From: Sistotremastrum niveocremeum HHB9708
Taxonomy: Eukaryota; Basidiomycota; Agaricomycetes; Sistotremastrales; Sistotremastraceae
DNA: 57,302 nucleotides
Direction: 5' to 3'
NCBI GenBank assembly: GCA_001630475.1
Contig: KV419431.1
Coordinates: 54,845-112,146 of the forward strand
Position 1 is the first letter of the stretch, and every line of letters begins with the position of its first letter. Positions 1,480 through 54,942 of this stretch are shown in pieces. A model generated the notes under the pieces. It did no database searches. It had not been told where the DNA came from and saw nothing but the letters and a program-made list of their open reading frames with translations. The position numbers and the translations under genes are program-made.

Positions 1480-4400
1480 TCAGTCTTCTCCATTGGCGTT
1501 CTCTAAAGCTGGCGACTGAGCGAAAACGGCCTGTGAATTTGAAGGGAGTGGTGAATTCAATTCAGACTCGGACGACGCGATCATGGGCGAAGGGTGGGTA
1601 AGGGTGAGCATGGGAATATCAGACTCTGGATTGGGGAAAGTGGCAGGGTCGGAATTGATATCTTCAAGAGCTGCGGAAGGGTTGTCGGCAGAAGGGGTGA
1701 GGAGAGGGTCTGGTTGTGAGGAATCGCTGGGAATCGGGGTTTGAGACGGATAGTGAGATGAAGATGCTGGTTGAAAAGATGTAGAGGCGATTGCGCCGGT
1801 GGGAGGAGAAGAGAAAGAATTGAGTTCTGCGGTCACGGTTAATAGAATGCAGAGGAAAAGACGAGGATGACTCACCAGCTAATAGCTCACCGGCGCGAGA
1901 GCGAGTGACATTGTTCATGGGACACTGATAACCATACTTGTCGCAGAACTCGTAATCAACGCATTGCTCGAGGAATCGCCGGACAGCAGTGGAGTCTGAG
2001 ACTTGTGAGACGCCGAAGGAATTGAGATAGGCGATGATCGTGTCGCTAGTCTCCTTCCAGGTGCCATAATCTGGATGCCGAGAGATGTAGTCGATGAGTG
2101 GGGACAGATCAATGTCAGTCGGAGGAGGAGAGGCAAGAACGGAAAAGACTCGGGAGAGGGAGTATGGACCAAGTCTGGTCTGATCGACCGATTTGACGAA
2201 TTCATTGATTGCGCGTAGAATCTCATGTTTGCGATCCTTGACGACGGATTCGACAACATAAGAGTCGATGATATCTGGATACTGAATGAATGATTTGATG
2301 AGGTCGAGGTGATCGACGTGGGAGAGGATCCGCGTGACGTCATCTCTCTTTCCCTCACGAAGAAGGTAGGAGCAATGTTTCTGCGCCAAGTCAAAGATCC
2401 TCCACCGATCTCCCAAATTCCCCTTGTGTGTATACGAGCACAGAACTTCGGCAATGCATTCCTCAAATGGGAGAGCAGAGAGACCGCGGAGATCGGCGTT
2501 GTTTTCCCACAATGACATGGTCAAGAACTCCTCGCGGAATTCCTGTGGGTAGAATTGGAATTCCAGGAAAGACAGCATCAGTCCCTTTGTCAATCTGGGC
2601 CCCACAGTCTTCCAGTTTTCTCTGGTGTAGGTGACAAAGTGCCTGAAACGGTCTTTGAGCGTCTCCTGGACCCTGACTGATGTGTCTGCAGCGTTCGACC
2701 GACTCGCTGCCTTCTCCACCGGATCCGCCAATCTCCTCCCATTCTCGAACCATTGGATATACGAGAACGATCCCATCGCGCGTTCCAACAACTTTGGATC
2801 GCTCGCTTCCGCAATCAACTCCATGAACGCGCCAATTAACTTCTGCTCATCACTGAGGTTCAACCCAACCCTCCATCTCCTGATCAGCATCCCACACACC
2901 CACAACGGACTACTGATCACCTGAACGGCATAAAGAAGCATCCGCATGCGAAGTGGGATTTCCTTGAATTCTCCCCTCAGGGCGTGGAAGCTTTCAAAGA
3001 CTCGGAATCGATCTCTGACATGAAGTCGTATCCCCCTAGCCTCGTCAAAAACGAATGAAAGGTGATAAGAGTTATTCATCCTCGCCGATAATAGCGTCAT
3101 CAACCCGTCAAAACAGAGGCTCATGCTTCTAACTCCCTGATAAAGCAGCCTGCTGAATGGTCCTCCGAACGGTGACGCTTCGTACAACAACGCATGTGTT
3201 GTCGCTCCGAGCACCACGACCAAGATACCAGAGGAGAGGACGACGCCAACTATCCAGGCTGCAAAGATCCGAGGCGTGCTCTTCTCAAACGATCCGCTGA
3301 GATTCAGAATCTGATATAGCAGGCCAGTCATGAAGAGGCCGATCGACCAGAGAAGCAGGATGTGAAGTCCTTCGACAAGATAGCCCAGCCAGCGCTTAGC
3401 AAGATCTTCTCGAGCGATATGACGGAGTAGTCGTTCTTTGTAAGTGTTGCCGAGCGGTCTGGTGGTCAACTTGCTCATCCATTGACGCCCGAGCACTGAT
3501 AGCACAGCGTTCAGGATCTAATACTTGATCAATATCTCCCGTCCTTCCTTTTTTTATGGAATCAACTGACAGCAACGATGAGCGCCAAGGAATACAGAAT
3601 AAAAACATCTTGCGCTGATGTTTTGGGCACAGGGGGTGGAGAATCGGTCGGATTTCCGGGGGAGTTATTGGAGGAGGGGAAGAGATTCTGTGTAGCGGGG
3701 ACGACAAACGCGGTGAGAACGGCAGAGAATAGAGCAATCTGAAATATGATCGTCACCAACCAGTCTGCGTATTATAGATGAATCGCACTCACGAATACTA
3801 GAGAAACATCCATTCTTTTTATCCACTCGTCAACTTCCTCTTTCGTCCGAGCCATCGCTATCTCGAACAAAGCCGTGCACGTCGATTCGTCCTCCATAGG
3901 TTTCAAATCGTACGGTTGGTCATCTAGCATCAACAATGACAATAAGTTCCTTGAACTATCCTCCGATAAAAAACTGACCCTTGATTGCATCTCTGATCAA
4001 AAGGTCGAATTTCTTTCCGTGGTCTACCAACGTGTCTTTCACAGACTGCAAAATGTCGCGCAGCGTCATGATGGTCTCAGATACGGAATCCTTCGACGGG
4101 GTCTCCACTGGCGCTTCACCGTCAACGGTCCCTATACCGCCGATCTCGTGGATTTCAGTAGGGTCATCTTGTAGACCCAAGGTGCCTTCCTGCTGAAAAA
4201 TTTTGGCCGTGGTTCCATTGTCTGCGAGATCTACCGCTGGCTTTTCAAGGCTCGGTTCCTGAGACCCGGGGTGAGGTTGGACTTCACGAACTGGAGCGAC
4301 GGTGGCTTGGGAGTGCGACATGACAGAACCCGTATCACTCGTCCCTTCTTGAGGAGCACGAAGTTTTGAGATATCGGCTGCTGCTTTCACAACAATACAC

Positions 4401-4688
4401 GAATGGATTCAACGAACCTTGCGACTTATTCGTAAGCAACGCGGCCATTGTCTCCTGTTGCACATTGAGCGCTCGTCTCATGTCCTTCATCACCTCCCGC
4501 TGCTCCTCCAACATAAGATTCTGCCTTTCCGACGTGGCATTTTGGTCTTCGATCAACTTGATCAGTCGATTAAACAAGGGAGTGTCGAAAAGATCGGCCG
4601 ACGCCCCGAAACTAGGTGTCTGAGGTGTGGGAGTGGCTTGAGGTGTGTGTGGAATATTGGGCTCGGGGGGATCTGGATGAGTGGACAT
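1480..4688 (-). CDS. DUF6535-family multi-pass membrane protein, copy A
   Basis: Predicted exons on the minus strand are 4688-4418, 4347-3979, 3923-3793, 3738-3571, 3517-1876 and 1826-1480. They stay in phase and give about 975 aa. Exon 1 carries DTPLFNRLIKLIEDQNATS and a charged helix. Exon 2 ends HGKKFDLLIRDAIKG. Exons 3-5 carry the DUF6535 domain: a Cys/Glu-rich lead (DESTCTALFEIA, EEVDEWIKRMDVSLVF), a membrane segment IALFSAVLTAFVVPATQNLF, a second ending in VLGRQWMSKL, then two more (LHILLLWSIGLFMTGLLYQ and IFAAWIVGVVLSSGILVVVL). A possible fifth lies near LLYAVQVISSPLWV. The rest is soluble and helical. The last exon is Ser/Pro-rich and ends SPALENANGED. The family is known only as a domain of unknown function. 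Exon 2's acceptor is the least certain junction. The 3' 708 bp are identical to copy B. Confidence 0.85.
1675..2382. repeat. 708-bp perfect repeat shared with copy B (gene-conversion tract, copy A side)
   Basis: Every base from 1675 to 2382 matches 8217-8924 (constant offset 6542), checked line by line. The tract runs through the end of the long exon, the 49-nt last intron and the start of the tail exon. Immediately outside it the two genes differ at many positions. Silent sites and the intron are identical, which points to recent conversion or unequal exchange rather than protein-level constraint. Confidence 0.95.
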
Positions 4689-4805
4689 GACGGACGAGCG
4701 GGGAACACGAGCACTGGTACGACTCGGAGGGATGGGAGAGGGGGCTCGAGAGGACGTGGCACCATCTGCTCGCAGCGGTATTATGAAGGCCGCGGTGAGG
4801 CCACT

Positions 4806-4853
4806 ATGTTACCGTTGCCTCATGTGTCGCTTCTGTAGGGTTCTTTGGCCAAT
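4806..4853 (-). promoter_or_regulatory. Shared upstream regulatory block, copy A
   Basis: About 118 bp upstream of the copy A start codon lies ATGTTACCGTTGCCTCATG (4806-4824, plus-strand reading). It is a two-mismatch version of the palindrome ATGGTACCAT followed by GCCTCATG, found in front of most array genes. A CCAAT box follows at 4849-4853. Conservation across paralogs whose surroundings have drifted suggests a transcription-factor site. Direct evidence of binding is absent. Confidence 0.5.
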
Positions 4854-4887
4854 GGCGTTGTTTTCGTCGAGCGTCTTGTCCGACGAG

Positions 4888-5160
4888 CACAGCCTTGGTG
4901 TGAACCGTGCCTCGAGGTGCGATAGATATCTGAGATAGCGAAAGAAATTGTTTGAGTCTATAGAATATCATGTGTGAGTCGGACGCACCTTGTCCAAGAG
5001 ATTTGAAAGAGGTCTCAGTTGGAAAGATTTTGCTTCCGTTGGAGCCTGAGAAGCGCGTGCCTGGAAAAACGTTCCCACGCTTCTGCTCGTCGTTCTTCAC
5101 GATGAGCGATATCCATAGGTTGGATGTTCTGCGCTTGCACGACTTCTTCAAGTGATTTTA
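4888..5160 (-). other. Conserved 5' leader block with exon-like splice sites, copy A
   Basis: The block starts with CACAGCCTTGGTGTGAA at 4888 and extends upstream. Equivalents precede copies B, D and G. On the minus strand each has a short segment with splice-like edges: an acceptor-like CACCAAG before GCTGTGCTCGT, and a donor CAAG/GTGCGTCC after a short open stretch (TETSFKSLGQG in A). Further upstream a start-like ATGAAATGGCAGAGCATCCA is present in B and D. It could be a spliced 5' untranslated leader, or a remnant of a small upstream gene. Frames are not kept in all copies. Confidence 0.35.
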
Positions 5161-5209
5161 CTCTGGATTGTGATCAAAGAGATTTCCCGCTTATTGGACA
5201 TCGATAAGA

Positions 5210-5742
5210 GTGACATGGCTTCTAAATGTTTCGGATGACGTTGACGGGCTGCTGGTGAGTCGACGTTACACGGATATCTTGGAAAGATTCAGGTCACTTT
5301 TTCTCCCATTCATATCAGAGGAATCTCTATCTCGAGATGACCTACGACTGTCCATCAAATCGTCTAGTTTGTTAACAAGACGCGTCCTGTCCCACCGCGC
5401 CATCCTCATCTGCCAAATCTGACGTGGACCTTGATTCGAGCTCTTCAACGTTTTGGATCTTGCATTGCGGATATGCGAGGACATTGACCACTTGGCAGAA
5501 GATATAAGGAGACCAAATTCGAACGGATGTCGGTTTCGGTTATCACGAGAGCTCAGGATGGGATATATCGGTCTACTGCCAGGTGCGTCCTCTGTGCTCT
5601 TTTCTCTCGTTTGAGACCTGACAAGTCACATCACCAACAGCATATGCGGAGCCGCTTCTGTAAGACTCGTTTGCCATTCGGATGATTCACATCTGCATCG
5701 TGATTTACGTCGACATCAAAATCTTCAAGTTATGCTCAGAGA
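5210..5742 (+). pseudogene. Decayed plus-strand gene remnant with one recognisable intron, unit A
   Basis: Related blocks occur upstream of A, B, D and G. All keep an intron-like stretch running from GGTGCG to CATCACCAACAG (about 5582-5640 here) with similar flanks: GAACGGATGTCGGTTTCGG before and a VCHS-coding stretch after. Copy B keeps the longest frame after the intron, with CHSYGPIYAGRNS. In unit A the frame breaks after that point. The product is not recognised. The tail of this block overlaps a minus-strand remnant, so the coding strand of the shared part is uncertain. Confidence 0.35.
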
Positions 5743-6320
5743 TTATTTACGCATTCCAATCTGCTTCATCAAGCTTTTGACCAGGACATAGCCCTCTGAA
5801 TTGCCAACTTCTGTGCTCAGGTACCCCCCTCGTCCCACGAGAGTCTGATAAGCGCCATCCAGTCTCGATGGTTCATTACCACCTCCTCGACTTTCCGCCA
5901 GAAAGATCGCGATATTAGTCCCGCTTCTCTTTCCCTCTTTCCTCCTAACACCGTTAACTTCATGTCTCAGAAGCCTTGGAGCACTATGAAACAAAGGTAC
6001 TCTGCGACACCTCCCCGAAGCATCATCGATTCACGCCATTGACGGATCATCTCCTTCGCAAATGCCAAAGAAGCGTTGTTCTCCTGTCGTGCAATTATTC
6101 CCGGCGAAGAACTTGATACATTGTCCTTCCGTCCGTCATCTTTGGAAAACGTGGCGCGCTCGTATCTGGACCTATCTCTCATCTGACGAAAGCGGAAGCC
6201 GAAAGTCAGCTCAATACATTCAATACGTTCTAGCGGTCTCATTTCTTGGCGAATCGACCGTCCTTCTGCGCTTCGATGGAATCTGTGTCGGCCAAGAAAT
6301 CGCTTCGTCGAATATTCTGT
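5743..6320 (-). pseudogene. Remnant of an unknown small gene, unit A
   Basis: Minus-strand frames here align in protein space with blocks upstream of B, D and G. Landmarks in order are DEAISWP, FRFRQMRDRSRYERATFSKDDGR, ENNASLAF, MIRQW, then after an intron-like break FLAESRGGG and RLDGAYQTLVGRGG. The frame is interrupted between the parts, and the splice donor expected after VLQGF is not a GT, so this copy is probably dead. I do not recognise the family. Agreement of frame between copies argues that a real protein-coding gene was once part of the duplicated unit. Confidence 0.4.
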
Positions 6321-8021
6321 AAACGTGCATAGCTCTCCTCAGAATCACCTCAGTCTTCGAATCAAGATTTTCTTGCACTATACCTCCACCTTGAGCAATG
6401 GATTCTTATCCTTTGTGTCGGCATGGACTCACTGCTTCAGCGCAACCAACTTCTGTATCTTCGAAGACAGACCAAGAGCCAGCGCAAATCAAGATACTGC
6501 TGTGATACAAGTCTGGCGACACGCTGAGTACGTTCATTCGTTATTGAACCGGACACCAATTCACAAATATGGAGAGCTAGATCGAGAATCGAGGGATGGC
6601 ACGGTTCGTATTGTTTTCATGTGGGATACGGAGCCATAATTTTTCGAGGATGATTTTTGGTGACTGCGAACTTGGCCGTTTCTCAGTGCTCATAATATCC
6701 TTGCCTGTGTAATTCGATCGTATACCAAACACGACATCTCTCAAACTACTTGTGAAGGATATTCTCTCTCCATCGCTCGATTTACCAGAGGCACCGACAA
6801 AGCTAAACAAGCTCCCTCGAGATCGTCGACGGCGACGGCCTCAGCCAGATCGTTTCTCTCAATATCAATCAAGGCCAAAAATTCTTCCATCAATTCTCTC
6901 AGGTCAACTCATCGGACGAACCGGGGGATCGCTTATGATCATATGAACCGAAGAACAAGTGTCCGAGACGGAGAAAATAAGCGCCCAAGCGGCGAACGAC
7001 ATCGAGCTCAAGATCTCGTCTTGACAGTACTGGAATTCAAATTTCAAGATGGAGCCAATTTTTGACCAGCGAGTGTCTTGCTATCTTGGAAAAATAATCT
7101 GGATATTCTCTGGCGAGCGATCTTTTCTCTCCGCTTACATTCGAACTCGCCGGCTCGCGTTTCTCGTATCCGTCCAGGATATTCAAGATCAGGACTCGCA
7201 CAGCTGTTGGTGTCATTCAAGTTTTTCCCAGGATGGACTCGGCTTCTGAAACACCACGCTACATCACTCGATCGATTAGAGGACTGGCGGCAAAACTCAG
7301 TGCATCAAACAGCCGCTGATTCGAAAAATTACAGCCAGCTCGAGTGTGGATCTTGGGCGTGCGATGGCAGGGATGCGAGACGAGCAGTAAAGAGGTTGAT
7401 TTTAGAGGAGTGTTTTTGTGGGCTGGAAGCCTGGAACCAGTGCGTCTTGATTTATTTCACCGCCGGTCTCAATCGCCGATTGACTTGCATCTATTTTTCT
7501 GTACTCAGTCTGATAGACCCGAATCAACGCTCCGGTACTCTCGTAGTCAACGGAGAACTGACAGCCCGATGGCTGTTACTCTGGCACGAAATTCTTCTTT
7601 GCCGAAATTATTCTTGAGAAGATACTCAATCTCTTTTGTGTTATTGGGCATTTATCGACTTGCATCATACCCTCACCGACCCGTATTCAGCTGCTCACCG
7701 GGACTCAAAGAAGTACGATGATCAGACCAGTCTTCGTCTTCCCGGTCTCAGGCACGACGTCTTCCATTACGACCTCACTCTGTACTCACTTCCCAATTGC
7801 CTGAATTTTCGTCTTTTTCTTTGTCATCCGCTCTCTACATTCACTCTCTCGGACTTTCTGTCGTTCTCATTGGTCAAAGACGGTGTTTGTCTCGACTTTA
7901 AACTGCTGTATTTCGCGGTAGTGAAATACACAATAATGGGACTATTTCGGCATTTGAAGTATGGTTCATGTACGAAAGTCGTCAAAATTGTTAAGCAAAA
8001 CGATGAGCCGAGCTAGACACG
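6321..8021. repeat. Intergenic array block between unit A remnants and gene B
   Basis: This is the repeated 3' intergenic block of the array. Around 6460-6530 is a stretch (GCGCAAATCAAGATACTGCTGTGATACAAGTCTGGCGACACGC) that recurs near 13,045, 19,290 and 43,410 and could encode the peptide VWRHAE in one frame. The AATAAGCGCCCAAGCGGCGA box is at 6971-7013. A late conserved part with GAAGTACGATGATCAGA lies near 7708. A 179-codon frame at 7078-7617 (plus) is not kept in sister blocks, so I do not call it a gene. Confidence 0.5.
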
Positions 8022-11000
8022 TCAGTCTTCTCTGTCGGCATTCTCTAAAGCTGGCGACTGAGCAAAAACGGCCTGGGAATCTGAACGGAGGGGTGGATCG
8101 GATTGAGACTCGGAGGACGAGATAACGGGTGGGGGACGATTGAGAGCAGTCAAGGGAATATCAGAGCCTGGGTCAGCGAAAGGGTTAATGCTAGGATTGA
8201 TATTTTCTGGAGCTAAGGAAGGGTTGTCGGCAGAAGGGGTGAGGAGAGGGTCTGGTTGTGAGGAATCGCTGGGAATCGGGGTTTGAGACGGATAGTGAGA
8301 TGAAGATGCTGGTTGAAAAGATGTAGAGGCGATTGCGCCGGTGGGAGGAGAAGAGAAAGAATTGAGTTCTGCGGTCACGGTTAATAGAATGCAGAGGAAA
8401 AGACGAGGATGACTCACCAGCTAATAGCTCACCGGCGCGAGAGCGAGTGACATTGTTCATGGGACACTGATAACCATACTTGTCGCAGAACTCGTAATCA
8501 ACGCATTGCTCGAGGAATCGCCGGACAGCAGTGGAGTCTGAGACTTGTGAGACGCCGAAGGAATTGAGATAGGCGATGATCGTGTCGCTAGTCTCCTTCC
8601 AGGTGCCATAATCTGGATGCCGAGAGATGTAGTCGATGAGTGGGGACAGATCAATGTCAGTCGGAGGAGGAGAGGCAAGAACGGAAAAGACTCGGGAGAG
8701 GGAGTATGGACCAAGTCTGGTCTGATCGACCGATTTGACGAATTCATTGATTGCGCGTAGAATCTCATGTTTGCGATCCTTGACGACGGATTCGACAACA
8801 TAAGAGTCGATGATATCTGGATACTGAATGAATGATTTGATGAGGTCGAGGTGATCGACGTGGGAGAGGATCCGCGTGACGTCATCTCTCTTTCCCTCAC
8901 GAAGAAGGTAGGAGCAATGTTTCTCCGCCAAGTAAAAGATTGTCTGGCGATCTCCCAACTTCCCCTCGTGGTTATACGAGCACAACACACGGGCGACGCA
9001 TTCCTCCAATGGGAGAAGAGCGAGAGGACGGAGATCGGTGTTGTCTGCTCTGAATGACGCGTAGTAGACCTCAGCGATGAATCGGTCGGCTAAAGGACAG
9101 ACGCTGGCAAGGACTTGGATCTGCTTCGGAGTGATCTCCTTTGATTTTTCGTTCTGATACCTGACAAACTGAGTCATCCGCGCGCTGAGTGTCTCACGCA
9201 CTCGGACTGAGGTATCCGTTGCCGTCAGTCGATTCCACGTCTTCTTTAACTGATCTGCAGTTCCCTCCCCATTCTTGAACCACTCGACATACGAGAATGA
9301 TCCTACCGCTCGTTCCAATAACTTTGGGTCGCTCGCTTCCGCTATCAAGTCCATGAACGCGCCAACCAGCTTTCCTTTCTTCTCCGTATCAAATTTCACT
9401 CTCCACTCCTCAATCAAGAAACACGACAACCACATGGGAATCATTGTCAGAAATACCAGCACGGCTATCATAAAGTCCCAGGGTATCCAACCGATACGTG
9501 CCTTCAACCATCCGCTCCAATCCTCGAACAGCAGGGCTGCCACTGTGTCAAAGAGTTTGCTTAGCAGCTTGATGATTTTGATAAGGAGCTTGCTGAACGG
9601 CCCTCCAAACGGCGAAACTTCATAGAGTAGGGCATGTATCGTCGCTGCCGCTACCACTGCAAGGATAACCGAAGAAAACGAGAGTCCGACTTTCCATGCG
9701 ATTAGCAACCTAGGTGCGTCTTCATTGAACGACCCTGCTAAATTTCGAAGTTGATATAGCAGGGCTGTCATGAATAGTCCAATAGATCCTAGAAGGATAA
9801 TGTGGAGGCCCTCGACGAGGATCCTCAGCCACCGTTTGGCCAATGCTTCGCGAGCCAGATGGCGCAGTAGCCGTTCCCTGTAAGTCGAACCCTCTGGCCG
9901 TGTCGTCAGTTTGCTCATCCATTGACGGCCGAGCACAGAGAGTACAGCGTCAAGGATCTGAACCGTAATCAGTCATTCAGTCCTGTTCTTTGAGAAAATC
10001 GCGAGATGCAGCACCGATAAGATAAGCGCCAGATAGAAGAGAATGCATACGTTCTGTGCCGAGATATCTGGCAGCGGAGGTGGGACATTTGTTGTGCTAT
10101 CGGGATTACTGGAAGACGGAGAGAGGGCTTGGACGGCCGGAACGAGAAATGCGGTGAGCACGGCCGAGAATAACGCAATCTAGTATGTTAATCGTCATAT
10201 CCACGTTTCGTTCCCTTTCAGATCAACATAACTCACAAAGACCAGCGACACATCCATCCTTTTTACCCATTCATCTACTTCTTCTTTCGTTCTCGCCATC
10301 GCTATCTCGAATAGCGCAGTACACGTTGATTCATCCTCCATCGGCTTCAAATCGTATGGCTGATCATCTGGATTCACCATACAAACTCATGTTCAGTGTA
10401 CCTCAGAATATCTTGAATGAAATCTCGTACCTTTTATTGCATCCCTGATCAACACATCAAACTTCTTTCCGTGGTCGACTAGCGTTTCTTTTATGTTCTT
10501 CATCATGTCGTGCAGCATCATGACTGCCTCATGGAAAGGATCTTTTGAAGATTCCTCCGCCAGAGCTTCGGCGACTGCTTCATCGAGTGCTTCCCCGTTA
10601 TCAACCTGGCGACTTGCGGCCGGATCCTCTGGGGGACTCGAAGCCTGATCGTCTCGAACAATATCGGCATGCGAAGTATCATTCGCAATATTATGAAGTG
10701 ATATAGGGCTACCGAGAGTTGGTTCCTGGGTGCTTTGAGTCGTATGAGGTTCGATTACGCCAATGTGAGACTCCAAGGCGGCTTGAGATGTTTGTATATT
10801 TGGCTGGACGGGATGCGATTCTCTCTTTGTTTCTGTATGATCACTTACATCTCAGCTTCTCATTATACAGCATCAGACGAAAGAGAAACCGCGCACCTGC
10901 CGATTTCGTTGTGAGCAACGCAACCATCGTCTCCCGCTGTTCCTCAAACGCCCTCCTCATATCCTTCATCACTTCTCGCTGATCTTCCATGACCTTGTGC

Positions 11001-12960: not shown

Positions 12961-14601
12961 CCGGTCGTTATTGTATTCATAGGTGTCCGTTCCATGATGG
13001 ACTTCACTGCTTCGGCTCCCTCATCGCCGGTATTTTCGAAGAAAGGTCACGGGCAAGCGCAGATTCAAGATAATGCTGTGATACAACTCTGGCGACAAGC
13101 TGAGTATGTTCGTGCCGCTCTTTGAACGGAAAGAAACCAGCAAAGATCTATACCTGGATCAAGAGTTGAAGGAATGTACGGAGCGAGTCTGATCCATTCT
13201 ATGATCGACAGAGACGTATTTTTGAGAAGAATATTTGGTGAATCTGAACTTGAAGCTTCCTTATCGATCGTAATATCCTTCTCCACGTGTGGATATATAC
13301 CGGACATGTCATCTTTCGAGTTACAGCTATCTTTCTGTGTTCAGCGTTTGGTTTACAGAGAGCTCGAGCATCAACATGAACAAACAAGCTCCCTGGACTC
13401 GCCAACGCCACCCTCGACGACGGCCTCAACCAGAGTCTGTCTATCAACATCCATCAAGCTCAAAATTTCTTCTATGTATTTTCTTAGCTCACTTCATTGG
13501 ACCAACCGGGGATTGCTTATAAGCCCAAGAACAAGCATTCGAGACCGAAGATAATAAGCGCTCACCCGGCGAACCTCTCGAGCTCGAGGCCTCATTCTGA
13601 CGGCATTGGATTCGAAGATAGAGCCGTCTTTGACGAAAGTGTGTCTCATTGTATCGGAAAATTTATCTCGATCCTCTGCACTGGCAATCAAATCTTTTTT
13701 CTCGGCTTACATCTGAACATCTCGGCTCGCGTTTCTCGTATCCGTCCTGGATAGTCAGGCGAAGGACTCGGACAGATCTCGGTGGCATCCAAGGATTTTC
13801 CAGAATGGCTCTGACTCTCGACATATCGAGACAGATCACTCGATCGATTATAGGACTGGCGGCAAGATCGAGTGTATCAAACAACCCGCTCGACTCGTCA
13901 TGGCTTGAGGGACAGGGGTGATTTGAATCTGGATCTTGGGAGGATGATGGGAGGAATGCGAGGTGAGAGCCGTGGTTTTGTGGACTCAAACTCGTACGTC
14001 TCACCTATCTCGATTCTGTTACCAAATCACTGACACTGAATTGCATCTACAGTACTATACTGTACTCATATTCCACAGACCTGAATCAACTCTTGAGCGC
14101 TCTTCCGATTGACGGTCAACTGACAGCACGTTGACTCTCTTGATTCCGAATCAGTTTCCAGGACGCGAAATTTTTTCTGGGGCGGTAACCGTTCTTGAGA
14201 AGATACTCAATCCCCTTTCTGTTATCTGCTCATCGACTTGCATCATGCTCTCACCAATGCATCTTCAACTCACCGGGACTCAACGAAGCATCAGAGTCAG
14301 AACATTCTTCTTCTTCCCGGTCTTAGGCACGACCTCTTCCGTTACGATCTCATTACAAGATTGGCTGAACTTTTTTAACATTTTTTGGTCTTCTGGTCGC
14401 TACATTTATTGTCTCGGCCTGTCCGTCGCTCTCAATTCTCAAAAACGGCGGGTTCGTCTTGGATTGATTACTGTCTGATACAGTTTGCACCCAATACACA
14501 ATACCACATTCATTTCGGCATTGATAATATGTTAAGAAAGTCGTGAGAATATTCCAGCGGATTGATGAACCGAGCTAGACACTGCCAGACATCAATCAGT
14601 C
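12961..14601. repeat. Intergenic array block downstream of gene C
   Basis: Repeated intergenic block. It contains the GCGCAGATTCAAGATAATGCTG stretch near 13,050, the box at 13546-13588 (ATAATAAGCGCTCACCCGGCGA), and the late block near 14,280 (ACTCAACGAAGCATCAG). No gene is supported on either strand. Confidence 0.5.
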
Positions 14602-17582
14602 TTATTTACGGGCATTCTCTAAAGCTGGCGACTGAGCGAAAACGGCCCGTGAATCTGAGGGGAACGGTGGATCGGATTCAGACTCAGACGATGCAATCAT
14701 GTGTGGAGGGGGAGTAAGGGTGAGCATGGGAATATCAGAGTCTGAATTTGCAAAAGTGGCAGGGTCGGCATTGATATCTTCAGGAGCTGGGGAAAGGGAG
14801 TGAGCAGGAGAAATGAGCGGACGGTCTGGCTGTGAGGCATCGTTGGGAGGCGAGGTGTGAGACGCAGAGCGGGACGCTGATGCTGGCTGCTTGGATGTAG
14901 AGGCGATTGCGCCAGTGGCAGGAGAAGAGAGGCGATCGAGTTCTGCGGGTAGGGTCAATAGGATGTAGAGGCAGAGACGAAGACGACTCACCTGCTAAGA
15001 GATCGCGGGCATGAGCACGAGTTCCATCACTATTGAAACACCGATGGCCGTCCTCATCGCGGACTTCTGTATCAACACATCGCTGGAGGAATCGACGGAC
15101 AGCAGCGGATTCGGAAATTCGTGAGACACCAAGGGAAGTGAGGTAGCCGATGATCGTGGAGCTAGTCGTACTCCAAGTTTTATAGTGTGGATGCCGAGAG
15201 ATGTAGACGATGAGTGGGGACAGATCGATGTCAGTCGGAGGAGGATAAGCGAGAATGCAAAATACTTGGGAGAGGGACTGAGGACCCAGTCTGGACTGAT
15301 CGACCTCTTTAACGAACTCATTGATTTCGCGGAGAAGTTCGTGTCTGCCATCTTTGACAATGAATTTGACAAGAGAATAGGTGATTGCATGCGGGTTCTG
15401 AATGAATGATTTGATGAGGTCGAGTCGATCGACGTGGGAGAGGATCCACGTGACGTCATCTTCTTTTCCCTCACGAAGAAGGTCGTGGCAATGTCTCTGC
15501 GCAAAGTCAAAGATGCTCGTCCGATCTCCCAACTTCCCCTTGTGGTTATACGAACACAACACCCGGGCTATGCATTCCTCGAATGGGAGAGCAGCGAGGG
15601 GGCGGAGATCGGCGTTGGCATCCTTTCCCAAGGCCAACAAAATCTCATCACGAAAATCTCGTGGGTACGCTTGGAAGTGGTGGAAGTTTTGCACCAAATC
15701 CTTTGCCATCCCGTCGCCCACCATTCCCAAGTTGTTCCCAAACCCAAAGGGCGTAAACTGCATAGCCCGCGCCCTGATCGTCTCCCGAACACGAACCGAG
15801 GTGTCAGTTGCGGTCAATCGATTGTAAGTTTTCTCCAACTGAGCTACGTCTCCTTTTCCATCCTCGAACCACTCTTTATAGGAGAAAGACGCAATTGCCC
15901 TTTCAATTAGTTGTGGGTCGCTGGCTTCTGCGATGAGCTCAAAATACACCAGGATCATGATACTCTTGTCATCCACTTCCATTTTGGCTCTCCGTTGATC
16001 GATCAAAAGCGACGCACACCATAGAGGGAAGAGGATGCCCCATCCGAGCATTAGGAGCAGTCGTTCTGAAGGTAGGCAGTTGATTCGCTTCCTCAGCCAA
16101 GGGGTTATACACGACCGATTCGACCAGCGCACGCAGGATTCAAACATGGCGCTCATCATCTTCATCAGCCCAAGTAACAGCTTGCTGAAAGTTCCCCCGA
16201 AAGGCGATGCCGCGTATACTAGTGCGTGTATCGTCGCACCCAACATCACAACAACGATGACCAACGAAAGGATAACGCCAACCGCCCACGCCGCTTTGAT
16301 CCTTGGTGCGTTTTGGTCAAAAGAGCCGCTCAGGTTGAAGATTTGATAAAGCAGCCCGGTCATAAATAACCCGATGGACCATAGGAGCAGGATGTGAAGT
16401 CCCTCGACAAGATACCTCAGCCAGCGCTTGGCCAACCTCTCGCGTTCCAGATGTCGCAAGAGTCGTGCTTTGTACGTTGATCCTTCTGGAATGCTCCTCA
16501 ACTTGCTCATCCATTGACGGCCGAGGACAGATAGAACGGCATCCAGAATCTAACGCGGCCCTGTCAATTTCCGTGCATTTCTGACCAATCAATCAACTCA
16601 CCGCAAGAATTAGCGCCAGGTAATACAAGATACACACGTCTTGTGCGGATATATCTGGTAACGGAGGAGCAGAGGTTGGGTCGGTCTGAGTATTGTTTGT
16701 GGTGGGGAAGAGGTTCTGAGTTGCGGGGACGACAAAGGCAGTGAGTACGGCAGAGAACAGTGCGATCTGTGCTCCCATCGGTGAGTCTCTCATTGTTCCT
16801 CAGTCGGTAAGCTGCTACTTACGAAGACCAACGAATTGTCCATCCTCTGAATCCAGCGATCTACCTCTTCTTTAGTCTTTGACATGGCCATCTCGAATAG
16901 AGCCGTACATGTCGATTCGTCATCTATCGCTTTCTGCTCGTACGGTTGATCGTCTAGAGCACACTGTCAGTCACCCCGGAGAACCTTTCTGGGTGACGAA
17001 CCTTTGATAGCGTCCCGAGTCAGGATATCAAATTTCTTCCCATGTTCCAGCAACGTATCTTTTATGCTGACTAGTGTATCTTTGACGCTGTCGACCACTG
17101 CACTTTTTTGCTGGCCGGCTGCGCCCATCTGATTTCTCGGAGCATATCTTGTCGAACCATTATATTCCCAGGATCTTAATGAGTCTCTGTCGTCATCCGT
17201 ATCCTCAGAGGATGTTTCAACGTGATCTATCAATCATATTAAATTCCAGAATACTCAAAAAATATTCTCACGAACCCCGATTGTTACCTCGTGCCATCGA
17301 CCTGACACTGAGGGTCTCTTCAAGACGTTCCATGACTCTTTTAACTCCCTTCAATATCTCTCTCTGTTCTTTCGCAGTGACGTTCTGTTCTTGAATTATT
17401 CCGATCAACTGATGGAATAGGGGCGTGTCATGAACGTCTAGCGCCGGCGTTGAAGTGAATGCAGGAACCGGATTCCGGAATTCCCGGTCCCTCGTTTCGT
17501 CTGACAGAGGGAAATATTCAGCGGCAGAATGGAGAGGAGGCATCGACTTTGTGCCGTGGTAGAAGAGAAGGAAAAGAGACAC
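14602..17582 (-). CDS. DUF6535-family multi-pass membrane protein, copy C
   Basis: The first exon starts at 17582 or, more like its paralogs, at the second ATG at 17543 (MPPLHSAAEYFPL). It carries DVHDTPLFHQLIGIIQEQNVT, a variant shared only with copy H. Exon 2 is short (about 17230-17003) and ends HGKKFDILTRDAIKG. The DUF6535 exons follow, then the long exon from 16549 to 14992 (VLGRQWMSKL, LHILLLWSIGLFMTGLLYQI) and the tail exon 14942-14602, separated by the conserved 49-nt intron. The central segment after VRETIRARAMQFTPFG is private to this copy. The tail stops early (ENARK) and lacks the usual acidic end. Probably functional; role unknown. Confidence 0.8.
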
Positions 17583-21297: not shown

Positions 21298-24200
21298 TCA
21301 GTCTTCTCTGTCGGCATTCTCTAAAGCTGATGACTGGTCAAAGGCTTCACGCGAATTTGAAGCAAGGGGTTGATTGAATTCGGAAACGGACGACAAGCGA
21401 ACGGGTTGGGGACGATGAACTTGAAGCGTTGTTATGGGAATCTCACGGCGTGAATCAGGCGAGAGGACAGCATCAGTATCAATATTTTCTGAAGCTGGGG
21501 AAGGGGAGAGGAGAGAGTCCGGCTGCGAGGCATTATTTAGAGGCAGGTTGTGGGATAGATAGTCCCACGGTGATGCTGGCCGGTTGGTGGCGATTGCGCT
21601 GGTGGGAGGAAAGGAGAGGGAATTGAGTTCTGTGGGTACGATCAATAGAATGCGGAGGAAGAGACAAGGATGACTTACCTGCTAACAGATCGCGGGCACG
21701 ATCGTGAGTTTCATCACTGGTCTCATGCCGAGAGCGAAATTCTGTATCGACGCATTGTTCGAGGAATCGACGGACGGGAGTAGAGTCTGAGATTCGCGAG
21801 AGGGGGAAGGAAATCAGATAGGCAATGATTGTGGCGCTATTTCCTCGCCAAGTGTGCCAGTATGGATGTCGAGAGAAGTAGTCGATGAACGGGGACAGGT
21901 CGATGTCAGTTGGAGGAGGAGAAGCGAGAACGGCAAAGACTTGGGAGAGGGACCAAAGACCAAGTTTTGACTGATCAATAGTTTTGACAAAATCGTTGAT
22001 TCCGCGGAGTATTTCGTGTTTGCGGTCCTTGACAATGATTTCAATTACAGAAGAGTAGAAGCTATCTGGACACTGAATGATTGATTTGACGAGGTCGAGT
22101 TGATCGACGCTTGAGAGGATCCGCGTCACGTCATCGACCTTTCCATCCTGAAGAAGGATGGCGCAATGTTTCTCCGCCCAGTGAAAGATCCTCCCTCGAT
22201 TTTCCAACTTTCCCTCGTAGTGATACTCGTCACGGTGGTTATACGAGCACAACACCTGGGCGATGCATTCCTCGAACGGGAGCACAGAGAGACTGCGCAA
22301 GTTGGCGTTGCCTGGTTGGAACGATGTAGACAAGAATTCATTTCTGAATTCTTCTGGCCAGGATTGAAATGCTGGAAAAGATTGAATGAGCTCCTTTGTC
22401 ATGCCTGATCCCATGCGCCTCCAGTTTTCCTTGCCGTAGGGAATGAATTGCTTCGCTCGAGCTTTGAGCGTCTCTCGGACCCGGACCGAGGTGTCAGTCG
22501 CCAATAGCCGATTCTCCGCCTTCTCCAACTGATCTGCCGCTCTCTTCCCATCCTTGAACCATTTAACATACGAGAACGACCCTACCACTCGTTCCACAAG
22601 TTTTGGATCGCTCGCTTCAGCAATCAAGTCCATCAATGCGCAAAGCAACTTCTTCTTATCCCTTGTATCGAATTTCACTCTCCACCTAACCAGGAGATAC
22701 GACAGCCACAGGGGACCGTTGTCAGAATTATGAAGACAAAAATGATAAGTTTCCAGGGTATCCAACTGGTACGTTCCTGGGACCCGTCGCTCAAATGATC
22801 CAGCAGGTCCGTCACCGACGAAAAAAAATTGCTTAACAGCTTGACGAATTTGAAAAGCAGCTTGCTGAACGGCCCCCCAAACGGCGATACTTCATAGAAC
22901 AGAGCATGTATCGCCGCCGCCGCCACTACCGCAAGGATAATCGAAGAAAGCGACATGCCTACTTTCCATGTAATCATCAACCTTGGCGCGGCCTCGTCGA
23001 ATGACCCTGCCAGGTTTCGAAGCTGATATAGCAGGCCTGTCATGAATAGGCCGATAGATGCCAGAAGGATGATATGGAGGCCTTCCACGAGAATCCTTAG
23101 CCATCGCTTAGCGAGTGCCTCCCGGGCTAGATGGCGCAGTAATCTTTCCCTGTAAGTGGATCCCTCTGGCCGGGTTGTCAGCTTGCTCATCCACTGACGG
23201 CCAAGCACGGACAGCACGGCGTCCAAAATCTGAGCCAACTTCAGCTTCAATATTTCAGGCTTGTGCCTGCTGAGATTCGCGTACCGCCAGAATCAGAGCT
23301 AAAAAGTGCAGTATGCAGACATTCTGCAACGATATGTCGGGAAGTGGAGGAGGAGAGTCTGATTGACTACTGGACGACGGAAAGAGATTTTGAATCGCCG
23401 GAATGAGGAATGCAGTGAGTACAGCAGAGAACAGCGCGATCTAGGGTTTCAACCAATTAAATGTTTGCCTCCTTCAGAGTGATGCAACGTACGAAGACCA
23501 GCGAAACATCCATTCGCTTTATCCATTCGTCCACCTGTTCTTTCGTCCGTGTCATCGCTATCTCAAATAGAGCCGTACAAGTTGATTCGTCTTCTACTGG
23601 CTTCTCGTCGTACGGCTGATCGTCTACGCGTGAACGTCAGCTTTATTGTTAAACGATGAGCTACTTGGCATGTACCCTTAAGAGCATCTCGGATTAAGAC
23701 ATTCAATTTCGAACCGTGATCCAATAGGGTTTCCTTGATGCTCTTCATAGTCTCATTCAATATCATGATCGCATCATGAACATGACCTTTCGAAGAATTG
23801 GAGTCCGATGGTGCGGGTTCACTCGCGTCTTCCACACCCGTATTGATCACGACCTCTGGACCAGCCGATTCTGACAATACTTCAGTTACTACATCCTCGG
23901 CCTTCTCGTGATTCAAATCGCCGGATTGTGTGATGGAAGTGGAGACTGCGCCCGTCACTGACAATGTCAGAGGATTGGGCGATGGAGGTTGTTGGTGAGG
24001 ATCCTGAGAGACGTCTCTCGCTACGAGTACGGGACGACTTGGCTCTTGACTCGGCTGCGCAGCAGTTGTTTGGACTGCGTGTTCTGATTTACAACATTTA
24101 ACCCGCTTTTTGAGCAGACTAAAAATGATCTGAAATTAAACGAACCTTTCGGTCTGATTTCCAACGTAGCATCGACCGGGTCCTTTATTTGGATGTGCCG

Positions 24201-27800: not shown

Positions 27801-30747
27801 TCAGTCTTCTTTGTGGGCATTCTCTAAAGCCGGCGACTGGTCAAACACTGCTTGCGAATCTAGAGCGATGGACGGCTCAGATTCAGATTTGGACGACGCA
27901 ATCATGGGTGGAGGGTGATTAAGGGTGAGCATGGGAATAGCAGAGTCTGGATCTGCTGAAGGAACGGTATCGAGATCGACGTGTGCAGGAGCTGGGGCAG
28001 GGGAGTGGGCGGAAGGAGAGGGAAGAGGGGATGGCTGTGGTGCATCGTTGGGGGTCGGTGCGTGGGACAGAGAGGGAGATGGTGATGCTGGTGAAATTGA
28101 TGCAGAGGCGATTGCGACGGTGAGAGGAAAAGAGAGGGAATCGAGTTCTGCAGGCACGGTCAATAGACTGCAGAGGAGGAGCTTAGGATGACTCACCTGC
28201 TAAAAGATCGCGGGCGCGGGCGCGAGTGTCGTCGTCCATGGAACGCTGATAGCCGTCCTCATCGCGGAATTCGTTATCAACGCATCTCTGAAGGAATCGA
28301 CGAACAGTAGTAGGGTCTGAGAATTGTGAGAGGGGAAAGGAGTTGAGATAGGCGATGATCGCGTCGCTGGTCTGATCCCAAGTGGCCCAGCGTGGATGTC
28401 GAGAGAGATAGTCGATGTGCGGGCATAGATCGAGGTCAGTCGGAGGAGGAGAAACGAGAACGGAAAAGACACGGGAGAGGGAGAAGGAATCAAGTTTGGA
28501 CTCATCGACCTCTTTAACGAATTCGTTGATTTTGCGGAGAATCTCGTGCTTGCGGTCCTTAACAATGAATTCCACGACAGAAGGCCAGACGCCACGTGGA
28601 GACTGAGTGAATGAATAGATGAGGTCGAGTCGATCGACGTGGGAGAGGATCCGCGTGACGTCATCTTCTCTTCCCATCCGAAGAAGGTCGACGCAATGAC
28701 TCTCCGCTAAGAAAAAGATTTCCGTCCGATCTCCCAACTCCCCCTTGTGGTTATACGAGCACAACACTTGGGCAACGCTTTCCTCAAATGGGAGAAGAGA
28801 GAGGGGGCGGAGATCGGCATTGTCTGCCTTGAATGACGCGGAGTAGACCTCAGCGGTAAATCGGTCGGCTAAGGGACAGGCATTGGCAAGGACTCTGATC
28901 TGTTCCCAAGTGATCACCGTCGATTTTTCGTGATGATACTTGACAAATTGATCCATTCGCGCTCTCAGCGTCTCCCGCACTCGAACTGAGGTGTCCGTCG
29001 CCGTCAGTCGATTCCACGTCTTCTTCAACTGATCTGCCATTCCGTCGCCACTCTTGAACCATTCTACATACGAGAATGACCCGACCGCTCTTTCCAACAA
29101 CTTCGGATCGCTCGCTTCAGCAATCAGGCCCATATAAGTCGTAAGAAGCTTTTCTTCGTCATCCAGTTCCAGCTCGAGTCTCCACACATCGACGAGTTGT
29201 GATGAAAGCCACAAAGGACCTGCAATGAGTCGTCCAAGAAATGGCAGAATGTTCCGAAATAAGCGCCGTCGGTTCTTGCAACGGTTGTCCAACCTTTTCG
29301 CGGCATCCTCGATTCGTTCCATCCACGGCTCGAAAAATCCGGCCATTCTCTTCGCAGCTAGGAAGATGAGTCTGCTAAACGGCCCTCCGAAAGGTGAAGC
29401 TTCATAGATCAGAGCATGCAATGTTGCACCCAGGACAACCCCAAGGATGCTCAGCGAAAGCAGCAATCCCAAGCACCACGTCGCCAACAATCTCGGTGCC
29501 CGGTCTTCAAATGATCCACTCAGATTCCAAAGTTGATAGAGAAGACCGGATACGAACAGCCCGATGGACCACAGCAGGATGACGTGAAGGCCCTCGACGA
29601 GATATCGCAGCCAGCGTTTTGCCAATCTCTCCCGTTCGAGATGGCGCAGCAGTCGTTCTTTATAGGTTCCTCCTTCTGGCCGGTTCGTTAATTTACTCAT
29701 CCATTGACGCCCTAACACAGATAACACAGCATCCAATATCTGAGTGACCAGTTTGTCAATTTCCAACATCTATCCGGTCATTCTAACTCACCGCGAGAAT
29801 GAGCGCCAAGTAATACGACACACATACATTCTCAGCAGACACTTTCGGGAGCGGGGGTGGAAGATCGGTTGGATTTCCTGGAGTATTGTTGGAGGATGGG
29901 AAAAGATTCTGTGTCGCTGGGACAACAAAAGCGGTGAGTACCGCCGAAAATAATGCAATCTACAATCATATCACTGACGATGTTCGCACAGACTCCACAA
30001 ATATACTCACAAATACTAGCGAGACATCCATCCTCTTTATCCACTCGTCCACCTCCTCCTTCGTCTTCGTCATTGCCATCTCAAACAAAGCCGTACAGGT
30101 CGACTCGTCGTCCAATTCCTTCTGATCGTATGGCTGATCATCTAGCGCCCGATGTCAATTCAACCTCGATTTGGTCAAAATGCGAATTACCTTTGATAGC
30201 GTCTCGAATCAAGATATCAAACTTCTTCCCGTGATCAAGGAGCGTATCCTTCATATTTCCCAGCGTATCCTTGACGGTTTCGATCACAGTACTCAGTCGC
30301 TGGAGCGTTTCGTTGACCGGACTTCTCGGTGATTCCATTTTCAAGTCTCCACCCATTTGAACCGACGATGGACGTCCACCACTCATCTCAACATCAGCCT
30401 CTTCCTGGAAGTCTGTGAATACTCCATCAGGGTTGACCAATCATGCACGTTGCGGACAACCGACCTTTCACGACACCTTTTCCTTTCCCATTCATCTGCC
30501 GTCCGAGATTCTCCACTGCTCTCCTGATGTCCAGTATTGCCTCTTTTTGCTCCTGAAAAGACTTGTGATGGATTTCCGATCTCGCGTTCTGCTCTTTGAC
30601 GAGGCTAACCAACTGTCTGAATATCGGCGTGTCGAAAGGATCCGCGTTCAAGACTGCGCCGGATGGTGTTTCTATTGCATTTGGCGGTGCGTCTTCAGAC
30701 TCTCTTAATTCGCTGCTGAATGGAACCGTCTGTGGGAAGGTCGACAT
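27801..30747 (-). CDS. DUF6535-family multi-pass membrane protein, copy E
   Basis: Exon 1 from 30747 (MSTFPQ) has DPFDTPIFRQLVSLVKEQNA and a short helix. Exon 2 ends HGKKFDILIRDAIKG. The DUF6535 exons carry IALFSAVLTAFVVPATQNLF and LHVILLWSIGLFVSGLLYQL. The long exon (about 29,740-28,200) resembles H at its 5' side (FFEPWMERIEDAAKRLDNR) but B in its middle (EKSTVITWEQIRVLANACPL). The tail exon, to 27801, ends SPALENAHKED. The last intron contains an in-frame stop right after LLAGESS, unlike six sister copies. Intact as read. Role unknown. Confidence 0.85.
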
Positions 30748-33494: not shown

Positions 33495-36400
33495 TTAAGC
33501 CTCGATATGGGCTCTGCCTTTCTCTAAGGTCGGCGCGATGTCGAAGATAGGGTCCGAGGTGGATGTGACAGATGCGACGGGAGGTGGTAGTGCTAGTGAA
33601 AAATAGTGCATCGGAATTGCAGGCGGCTTGAGATTGTTGGAAGGGTCAGATGTTGTGATCTTCTCATGGTTGCGCGCGTCGGGCAAGGCAGAGATATCGA
33701 TGGGGATCCCTATAATTGAGGATTGAGGTGAGTGTGGTGCTGAATGCGGAGAGCTGGGTTGCGAGGGTGAGGCAGGAAGGGAGGAATAGGCGTTGGCATC
33801 TTGCAGTGGTTCGTGATTGTCGATGGGAGAAGTAGGAATACGGCCGTCGAGAACTGCTAGGACGTGAGTGAGGAGGGATGAAAAGATGAGCGCGACGTAC
33901 TGTCTAGAAGAGTCTGAGCTTCTCTGCAGATTCTGATCTTGGCTTCATCGTTGGTCTCTTCCCAAAGATTAAATGAGGACGTATCGCGAGAACCTGGATC
34001 GATACAAAGACGGAGGAAGCGACGGACAGCAGCAGACTTGGAGACTTGTGAGACGCTGAAGGAGTTGAGATAGGCGATGATTGCGTCACTCGTCTTCTCC
34101 CAAGTGAGAAAGTGTGGATGTCGAGAGATGTAGTTGATGAGTGGGGACAGATCGATATCTGTCGGAGGAGGAGAAGCAAGAACGACAAAGACTTGGGAGA
34201 GGGACTGAGGATCAAGTCTGGAATCATCGACGGTTTGGACGAATTCATTGATTTCGCGTAGAATCTCGTGTTCGTGATCCTTGACAATGAATTCGACAAC
34301 GGAAGTGGAGACGTGATTTGGATGCTGAATGTATGATGTGGTGAGGTCGAGTCGATCGACGTGGGAGAGGATCCGCGTTACGTCATCGACCTTGCCCACC
34401 CAAAGAAGATTTCTGCAATGTTTTTCCGCCAAGTCCAAGATCTTCCCCCGATCTCCCAACTTCCCCTTGTGGTTATACGAGCACAACACTCGGGCAACGC
34501 ATTCCTCAAAAGGGAGAGCAGAGAGAGGTCGGAGATCGGAGTTGTCTGGTTCAAACGCAACCTCCGATAAGGAATTCCCGAAACGTGCTGGGTATGAATG
34601 AACGGCAAGGAAGGACCGGACGTGGTCCCTGGTGAGCCGCTCTCCCATATCTCTCAACTGTTGACTGTCAGGGGGTACGAACTGCTTGGCACGAGCTCTG
34701 AGCGTCTCTCGGACTCGGACGGATGTGTCAGTCGCCAGCAGCCGATTCTCTACCTTCTCCAACTGATCTGCCTTTCCCTCCCCATTCTCGAACCATTCTA
34801 CGTACGAGAACGACCCTACCGCTTTTTCCAACAGCTTCGGATCGCTCGCTTCCGCCATCAAGTCCATGAACACTCCAATCAGTTTCCCTCGATCGTCTTG
34901 GTACAGCTCAACTCTCCACCTCTTGACCAGCATCCAACACAACCACATTGGGCTTGTGAGGACCTGGACAGCAAGAAGCAATGTTTCAGCCTGGAATGGG
35001 ATTGATTGGAAGGCCTGTCTTAGTTCGCGAAGGGTCTCTGGGCGCTTGCTTTCATCTCTCCAAAATGACCAAGTCAACTCTGAGTGATACAAGTCACGCA
35101 TCAATCCAAAGATTTGCCCCGTCAACGCGACGAAAAGGCCGGTCCCGCCTTCTGCTGCCTTGTAAAGCAGCTTACTGAATGGTCCACCAAACGGTGAGAC
35201 TTCGTACACCAGTGCGTGGGTCGTTGCTGCCAACACAACAAGCAGGATACCGGAGGAGAGGACGACGCCAACTATCCACGCAGCAAAGATCCTAGGTGTG
35301 CTTCTCTCGAATGATCCGCTGAGATTAAGGATTTGATATAGCAGGCCAGTCATGAAGAGACCGATAGACCATAGCAGGAGTATGTGAAGTCCGTCGACAA
35401 GAACTCCGAGCCAGCGTTTAGCCAGTTCTTCACGAGCAATGTGACGCAAGAGTCGTTCTCTATACGTGCTGCCTACGGGTCTGGTCGTCAACTTGCTCAT
35501 CCATTGACGACCGAGAACAGAGAGCACGGCGTCCAAGATCTATGTTCTTGTAAGTATTACCGTCGCTGACCTGATTGTTCAATCTACTCACGGCAAGGAT
35601 CAGAGCCAAATAGTATAAAATGCACACGTTTTGAGCTGACGTGTTGGGGACTGGTGGAGGGGAGTCGGTTGGGATGCCGGGCGTATTATTGGATGAAGGA
35701 AATAGGTTTTGGGTGGCAGGGACAACAAACGCGGTGAGCACGGCTGAGAACAACGCAATCTGTGAGTCGAGATAAGTCAATACATTGGGCCCATTGAGAG
35801 AACGCCGCTTACAAAGACCAACGAAACATCCATTCTTTTGATCCATTCGTCGACTTCTTCTTTCGTCCGGGCTACGGCGATTTCAAATAAGGCCGTGCAT
35901 GTCGACTCATCGTCCAGGGGTTTGTGATCGTACGGTTGGTCATCTGATCAGGCCTATCAGTTGACTCTAATGTACGGTTCATTTCACCGACCTTTAATCG
36001 CATCTTTGATCAATACGTCCAATTTACTCCCGTGCTGAGAAAGGACTTCTTTGACGCTTTTAAGAAGTCCAATGACCTCGTTAATGGGATTTGGAGGTGC
36101 GGCTGCCCGCATTTGGTCGGGTTCTCCAAGGACTACGTCGGACACGTTCTGGGACTCAGATGGAACCGTGTCACTTTGCCTATTGATACCCGAGAGAGCG
36201 CCGGGCATATCGGCGGCGGCTTCGCCTGATTGATGGACCGTTAAGCTACGAGGGTGCGCAGACGTTGTCGATGGAGCGTCAGATGTAGTCGATAGAGCAG
36301 GGGACGAGGTCCTGTCAGACCCGCGGATGCCACGAGCAACCTCGTTCACAGCCTTTCGAACATTGGCTGTGATATAGAATTAGACACCTCCAGGGGTACA

Positions 36401-54573: not shown

Positions 54574-54942
54574 TAGTGATGCCAAGGTTCGGTTCGAGAA
54601 CCGTTCCGAACCGGGTTTGAACTGAACTGAACCAGAGTTCAGTTCAAGTTCGAGTTCAGTTCAGGTCTGGGACCAAGTGGTTCAGTTCATGGTTCAGGTC
54701 TTTGGCCAGGCACCTGAACCGAGTTCAAACTGAACTGAACCATGAACCCATCCCAAAATAATATGTCAAGTATTATGCCAAATGTGTTCAAAAAATGTAT
54801 TTTCTGATGAATTATCAAGGATGGTAACAGCTATAGGTATATATTATAGATCCTGTACACTATATTAGCTCCCAAGATGCCAGAAGAATATTATGTTAGG
54901 CCTGTGAGTCTTGATATAGGAGGTACAATCAAGGGACACAGT
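54574..54942. mobile_element. Left end of an outer hAT-like element
   Basis: Starts TAGTGATGCCAAGGTTCGG, with the TAGTG start typical of the other hAT-like element here. About 150 bp follow, dense in GAACC/GGTTC and GAACTGAACTGAACC repeats in both orientations, as in transposase-binding subterminal regions. No matching right end is seen in the window. The second element is inserted downstream, so the outer one may be nested and extend beyond 57,302. Confidence 0.45.
54935..54942. repeat. Target-site duplication, left copy
   Basis: GACACAGT immediately before the left inverted end; identical to 57211-57218. Confidence 0.85.

Follow-up and report, generated by a model that had tools for sequence, protein, structure and literature searches.

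Exchange of sequence between paralogues has been described in several gene families, and the passages cited here allow a comparison with the DUF6535 genes of the basidiomycete Sistotremastrum niveocremeum HHB9708. In the tandem amino-acid transporter arrays of trypanosomatids, partial conversion has left 151 bp identical near the 3' end (PMC1810246). Among the HNWD/het-d/het-e genes of Podospora, the exchanged part is a WD-repeat array that has a role in allorecognition and contains codon positions under positive selection (PMC1805685). In the RPP8 genes of Arabidopsis, a tandem pair exchanges little and a distant pair much (PMC6771003), and in the wtf genes of fission yeast, non-allelic gene conversion was traced through trees of gene segments (PMC9562144). 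The window analyzed here is a stretch of 57,302 nt from contig KV419431.1 (assembly GCA_001630475.1, forward-strand positions 54,845 to 112,146), designated C38:54845-112146 in a genome of 34,710,156 bases and 111 contigs; positions given without a contig are those of the window. It carries eight copies of a DUF6535 gene, A to H, head to tail at a spacing of 4.8-6.7 kb and coding on the minus strand. Copies A and B share a 708-nt tract without a single mismatch, and the best explanation overall, to which we assign a probability of about 0.88, is recent interlocus (ectopic) gene conversion between these tandem paralogues as one event of a recurrent exchange of the 3' module.

As far as the cited passages describe them, these systems resemble the DUF6535 array in part. 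The trypanosomatid transporters likewise show a short identical stretch between tandem duplicates near the 3' end, a conflict between trees, and concerted evolution in the family; they differ in organism and gene, and unlike theirs the A/B tract is 708 nt long and crosses an intron, and the neutral sites of the DUF6535 genes reveal one module that evolves apart from the rest of the gene (PMC1810246). The Podospora genes are also a fungal family in which one protein part is exchanged and the rest keeps its own history, but the part exchanged in the DUF6535 genes is a predicted helical domain without repeats, and the ratio of nonsynonymous to synonymous differences per site (pN/pS) is below 1 in the windows examined (PMC1805685). 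Exchange between paralogues raises and shuffles variation in RPP8 as it does here, although conversion in RPP8 was shown with population samples and the DUF6535 case concerns one genome (PMC6771003). The wtf genes, a fungal multigene family too, share with the DUF6535 genes the detection of non-allelic conversion by segment trees and differ in being meiotic drivers (PMC9562144). In the literature that we searched, DUF6535 appears in a single paper, as a row of an expression table (PMC12387923), and no report of conversion in DUF6535 genes was found there, subscription literature being mostly outside the search.

Because gene conversion between tandem copies is well known, the A/B tract alone is ordinary, a further case of a known phenomenon, and the module-limited exchange is more interesting than the tract. 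What it adds is a sharp switch from saturated to young neutral sites within one exon, near the predicted edge of a domain, in a fungal family that is both very large and uncharacterised. The C-terminal domain is thereby marked as the part traded by close copies, and whole-sequence trees of such genes can mislead.

An identical tract in copies A and B

A direct base comparison of positions 1675-2382 in copy A with 8217-8924 in copy B gives 708 matches in 708 bases, and the bases next to both ends are unlike (1674/8216, C/A; 2383/8925, G/C). At equal offset, the left flank (1480-1674) differs from B at 52 of 195 positions (73.3% identity) and the right flank (2383-2482) at 22 of 100 (78.0% identity). 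The tract, which like the second tract of B described below is assigned to neither strand, sits at the 3' end of the tandem genes and spans the final 507 nt of exon 5, all 49 nt of intron 5, and the first 152 nt of exon 6, with the stop codons at 1480 and 8022 lying outside it. Intron 5 is identical in the two copies (1827-1875 in A and 8369-8417 in B; GT-AG, minus strand). The absence of differences limits the divergence to at most 0.42% (95% upper limit), which is a bound on divergence and not a date. A further exact match of 70 nt is shared by A and B upstream of the gene (4870 and 11383).

Silent sites are as uniform as the rest of the tract. Across the 168 codons of its exon-5 part, A and B are the same at all 119 synonymous and all 385 nonsynonymous sites, and the other 20 pairs of the seven window copies have a synonymous divergence (dS) of 0.34-0.65 and a nonsynonymous divergence (dN) of 0.20-0.35 over the same part; copy D, whose exon 5 is divided over two frames, did not enter the codon analyses. 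Over the remainder of exon 5, the A/B pair has a dS of 1.46 and a dN of 0.40. The original prediction had described an identical pair, silent sites and a 49-nt intron included, between unlike border bases and diverged flanks, and the sequence bears this description out in every part.

A tandem arrangement of this kind raises the question of unequal crossover or a recent tandem duplication of the unit. The head-to-tail layout is one that unequal crossover makes, and the array probably grew in this way at some time. A single crossover or duplication leaves whole-unit identity, with one border at most, whereas here the identity ends on either side, 708 nt apart, and A differs from B by 0.47-0.60 in introns 2-4. 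The two-sided border largely refutes this explanation, which we consider highly improbable, with the caveat that two close crossovers are indistinguishable from conversion.

Gene conversion, in contrast, is favored by two further lines of evidence. The GENECONV check proposed with the original prediction was run as a GENECONV-like test in our own implementation, which shuffles site order, using 1516 polymorphic sites from 17 copies. A and B share a run of 558 consecutive polymorphic sites, which scores 186.6, compared with a maximum over all pairs of 20.2 in 2000 site-order permutations. A tree of the right flank, to which the tree test was confined, rejects A and B as sisters (log-likelihood lower by 88.96; p value of the approximately unbiased test, p-AU, 1.1e-35). 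In this tree A stands beside F with unsure support (78/65), and B is grouped with D, I, and e (94/95). The tree of the tract itself, built from 15 different sequences, is nearly star-like, with 2 of its 12 inner branches starred; copy q was left out of both trees and copy n out of the right-flank tree. Silent-site identity, the shuffling test, and the conflict of the right-flank tree thus uphold the claim of recent gene conversion, and interlocus gene conversion between A and B is strongly supported.

Identity might also be kept by strong purifying selection or by a second reading frame. Copies A, B, and C each have an open +1 frame of 190-210 codons, divergence in the tract region is nearly equal among codon positions, and when codons are drawn from the whole of exon 5, stops in the +1 frame appear depleted in the seven copies (15 vs 45.3 expected, 0 of 200 draws). 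This depletion disappears in each of the seven copies under local codon usage (p 0.178-0.788, local pool) and likewise under within-gene permutation (p 0.058-0.846, seven copies). We note that the whole-exon control is also extreme in other regions and frames, in both directions, and that the copies are related and not independent. Intron 5 is as slow as third positions (0.28 vs 0.29), and divergence between other pairs amounts to 23-24% over the exon-5 portion of the tract stretch, so identity is not required. An overlapping +1 gene was therefore rejected, as its signal vanished under local codon usage and the intron diverges like third positions, and selection for identity is the least probable of the explanations that we weighed.

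The mosaic edge of B and probable exchange among other copies

Copy B contains a second tract, 8913-9158, that adjoins the A/B tract. Positions 8913-9135 are identical to copy J (C38:42931-43153, 223 nt), and positions 8935-9158 are identical to copy d (C41:16171-16394, 224 nt). Since this J/d-type tract overlaps the A/B tract by 12 nt, B is a mosaic. In the 50 nt to the left of 8913, J and d agree at 49 of 50 positions and A and B at 50 of 50, with B matching J at 43 of 50 and d at 44 of 50. J and d remain alike over the border while B switches to the A type, which points to B as the likelier recipient; we infer that B (8217-8924) probably received the tract and that A (1675-2382) probably donated it. 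On the simplest reading of the border sequence, A would have overwritten B.

Exact tracts are found between other copies as well. We scanned C38:1-142000, C41:1-30000, C108, C111, and one 10-kb stretch each of C42 and C19 for exact matches, skipping the runs of N on C38 (1-4868, 44413-54844, and 112147-114088), and obtained 15 exact runs of at least 100 nt. The A/B tract is the longest exact instance among the gene copies, the overlap of contigs C108 and C111 apart. Other tracts between gene copies join c and d (512 nt), C and d (207, 147, 111, and 101 nt), and J and d (201 and 171 nt); two stretches in the last-exon region downstream of exon 5 of copy C, 14581-14727 and 14729-14935, have exact counterparts in copy d on C41. 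The remaining runs include one of 560 nt (C38/C108), two of 348 and 168 nt (C38:114903/117131), and one of 275 nt (C38:21951/26100). The pairwise homoplasy index (PHI) test, applied to 14 copies with B, q, and n excluded, was significant for the whole stretch as well as for its 3' and middle parts (0 of 500 permutations for each). The original prediction had the array actively exchanging sequence: exchange beyond A and B stands, given the other tracts, the PHI test, and the young 3' part described below, whereas "actively" is bounded by the divergence limit of 0.42% and undated.

An assembly artefact, in which sequence from one copy filled, or was collapsed into, the tract of the other, is unlikely. 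The DUF6535 family is repetitive, and the assembly has unmerged or odd places nearby, two of which count in favor of such an artefact. C108:1-2336 and C111:8573-10908 are identical contig ends (2336 nt), and the two contigs probably join; C41:6668-8167 is a 1.5-kb palindrome, 98.3% identical to its own reverse complement, which ends where the DNA match of copy c begins (8166) and is either a real inverted duplication or an assembly fault. The window, however, is free of N, the other copies are ∼24% different in the tract region so that reads would seldom be confused, and frame and splice sites are intact in both A and B. The mosaic edge of B against two copies and the similar tracts in other pairs would, moreover, need several separate artefacts.

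The 3' module of the DUF6535 genes

The 3' module of copy A (1480-2500, minus strand) encodes the predicted C-terminal helical domain and the tail, and it is set apart by low neutral divergence across close copies, with a boundary near 2500-2530. Among six window copies (A, C, E, F, G, and H, with B and D omitted), divergence at fourfold degenerate sites is 796/1263 (0.63) in the 5' part of exon 5 and 280/1086 (0.26) in the 3' part, and 0 of 10000 column permutations reach this contrast. The comparison sets the first 300 codon columns against those from 345 onward; columns 300-344, counted from 0, were left out. Along the exon, fourfold divergence in the same copies is 0.57-0.82 in every block from 3517 to about 2530, falls to 0.25 at 2443-2527 and 0.09 at 2359-2443, and then climbs unevenly to 0.50 at 1876-1942. 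The minimum sits at the right edge of the A/B tract and may reflect either an exchange start site or a constrained element. Beyond the module lies a poorly conserved stretch (2501-2640, minus strand) in which fourfold divergence jumps to saturation. Mean pair identity is 0.51 in 2501-2600 and 0.64 in 2601-2700, and this stretch is likely the edge of homology.

The introns follow the same pattern. Introns 2, 3, and 4 differ by 0.63, 0.64, and 0.66 (27 pairs of the eight window copies, A-B excluded), and inner intron 5 differs by 0.28 (20 pairs, seven window copies) and 0.26 (119 pairs, 16 copies). Taken together, the young fourfold sites and the young intron 5 indicate a more recent shared history for the 3' module than for the remainder of these genes, in which neutral divergence is higher, as concerted evolution of the module entails.

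More distant genes help to separate exchange from constraint. Relative to the six window copies, 3' fourfold divergence is 0.21-0.32 for the C41 and C111 copies together with two more on C38, 0.36-0.44 for those on C42 and C19 and three other C38 copies, and 0.58-0.65 for five more distant DUF6535 genes; the 5' part is at 0.51-0.74 for all of them. We also compared classes of distance in 35 of 47 open reading frames (ORFs), namely those with long profile coverage and two shorter ones, dropping pairs with fewer than 100 shared 5' codons. Pairs with a 5' amino-acid identity of 0.5-0.8 have a fourfold divergence of 0.32-0.33 at 1876-2274, irrespective of their 5' distance, and DUF6535 pairs with an identity of 0.3-0.5 approach saturation over this stretch (0.58-0.63). 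For 1876-2274, deep constraint on the 3' DNA was accordingly rejected. As the distant genes lack the drop in divergence over most of the module, the 3' module appears to be recurrently exchanged among close copies.

Conversion tracts are the product of repair in which a paralogue serves as template for a broken copy. For A and B, a break in one copy would have been mended with the other as homologous template, leaving no lasting crossover, and such bounded copying would leave a 708-nt piece identical while each side keeps its own old sequence. The same process, if recurrent, would swap and homogenise mainly the 3' module of close copies, that is, the C-terminal helical domain, intron 5, and the tail. 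Copying would then halt near position 2500 of A, where similarity collapses, with the poorly conserved stretch (2501-2640) as the putative barrier.

Several observations weigh against this reading or parts of it. The case as a whole rests on a single assembly. The direction of the A/B event depends on one border, and a younger J/d-type tract in B may have trimmed a longer A/B tract, in which case either copy may have been the donor; under both orders of events, B was a recipient at least once. Not all exact tracts fall in the 3' module, the 512-nt c/d tract being in the middle of exon 5. At 2275-2500, fourfold divergence is lowered even in distant pairs (0.49-0.51), so that local constraint or codon bias may contribute there and deep constraint is only partly rejected for this block. 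The 5' and 3' distances are to some degree linked: Mantel correlations between them are weak yet above zero in a 20-copy set (r 0.11-0.20), with three of six nominal p values below 0.05, and block 5a of that set gives r 0.14-0.19 (nominal p 0.012-0.041); in a 13-copy set they are near zero (r -0.07 to 0.12). One block pair among the six window copies gives r 0.64 (p 0.006). Finally, for the four pairs with the smallest 5' distance, fourfold divergence is barely lower in the 3' part (0.13 vs 0.16).

The exchanged part encodes a predicted domain. The last 230 residues of exon 5 are predicted, from the seven window copies, to form a compact helical domain (predicted local distance difference test, pLDDT, 90.8; predicted template modeling score, pTM, 0.87). 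In a longer model (pLDDT 62.9), the confident part begins near residue 320, not far from residue 335, around which neutral divergence switches. Foldseek returned no match at E ≤0.001 among 539 with E up to 10 for the helical-domain model and none at that level among 425 for the longer model; its weak recurring matches are to helical-repeat folds such as importin alpha and catenin. A search of the sequence profile against PDB gave 3 matches with E up to 1, the best at 0.078 and none confident. The helical-repeat likeness of the model is no more than a hint at a binding domain.

Positive selection in the exchanged domain was considered and rejected, as mean pN/pS is below 1 in each exon-5 window; it is 0.54-0.76 in the windows of 3' exon 5, these being window averages and not site-wise values. 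The positive selection of HNWD-type genes thus has no counterpart in these windows. Their NACHT and WD-repeat domains did not appear in the seven ORFs scanned (from copies A, B, and C and their surroundings), where DUF6535 alone passes the Pfam cut-off. Since the HNWD features that were tested fail, we do not class the DUF6535 copies with HNWD-type allorecognition genes. A far-reaching and rather doubtful idea is that the C-terminal helical domain is an exchangeable cassette. Frequent conversion, limited by a sequence-poor hinge at about exon-5 codon 335, would then recombine a shared C-terminal pool with anciently diverged N-terminal (probably membrane) parts and continually yield new receptor-like combinations, as in fungal non-self recognition.

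Two features accompany the module. Third-position composition switches along exon 5 (1876-3517, seven copies), from C 0.25/G 0.33 in the 5' part to C 0.40/G 0.16 in the 3' part. In the spacer downstream of the genes (501-1479 and its homologues), mean pair identity is 0.61-0.69 per 100-nt block; as this is above introns 2-4, the exchanged block may extend past the gene.

Gene models and neighboring features

Gene A (1480-4688, minus strand) has a clean six-exon model that encodes a DUF6535 protein of 986 aa, with exons at 4688-4418, 4380-3979, 3923-3793, 3738-3571, 3517-1876, and 1826-1480. Gene B (8022-9957, minus strand) is given here from the start of exon 5 at 9957 to the stop codon at 8022, with its 5' exons upstream. 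The spliced frames of A and B stay open to their stop codons. DUF6535 (PF20153) scores 38.7-40.4 bits in three window copies, against a Pfam cut-off of 23.9, and these are partial matches over exon 5. Short introns together with DUF6535 genes are the mark of a fungal genome, and the family suggests a basidiomycete of the mushroom type.

Exon 5 of the remaining copies, all on the minus strand, lies at 14993-16549 (C), 28198-29739 (E), 33902-35539 (F), 38738-40285 (G), and 45363-46925 (H). In copy D (21533-23292, minus strand), exon 5 is split over two frames, 22675-23292 and 21533-22891, and this copy may be a pseudogene or contain a misread stretch. The family is large in this genome: DUF6535 gives at least 151 exon-level matches across many contigs, and 202 residues of the C-terminal part likewise give at least 151 matches, all of these being pieces and not genes. 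C19:550352-552623 and C91:27379-29650 score alike for DUF6535 and for the C-terminal domain, as a recent duplicate or an unmerged contig would.

In a windowed blastn comparison, two parts of copy A match no DNA of the other copies. The first, 2821-3120, is a hypervariable middle region with length differences, and the second, 4021-4440, belongs to the fast N-terminal region. Farther along the window, 49134-53949 (minus strand) holds four long ORFs of 237, 699, 407, and 273 aa that have no Pfam match at E 0.01; Cys/His-rich stretches can be seen in them by eye, and they are possibly part of a mobile element.

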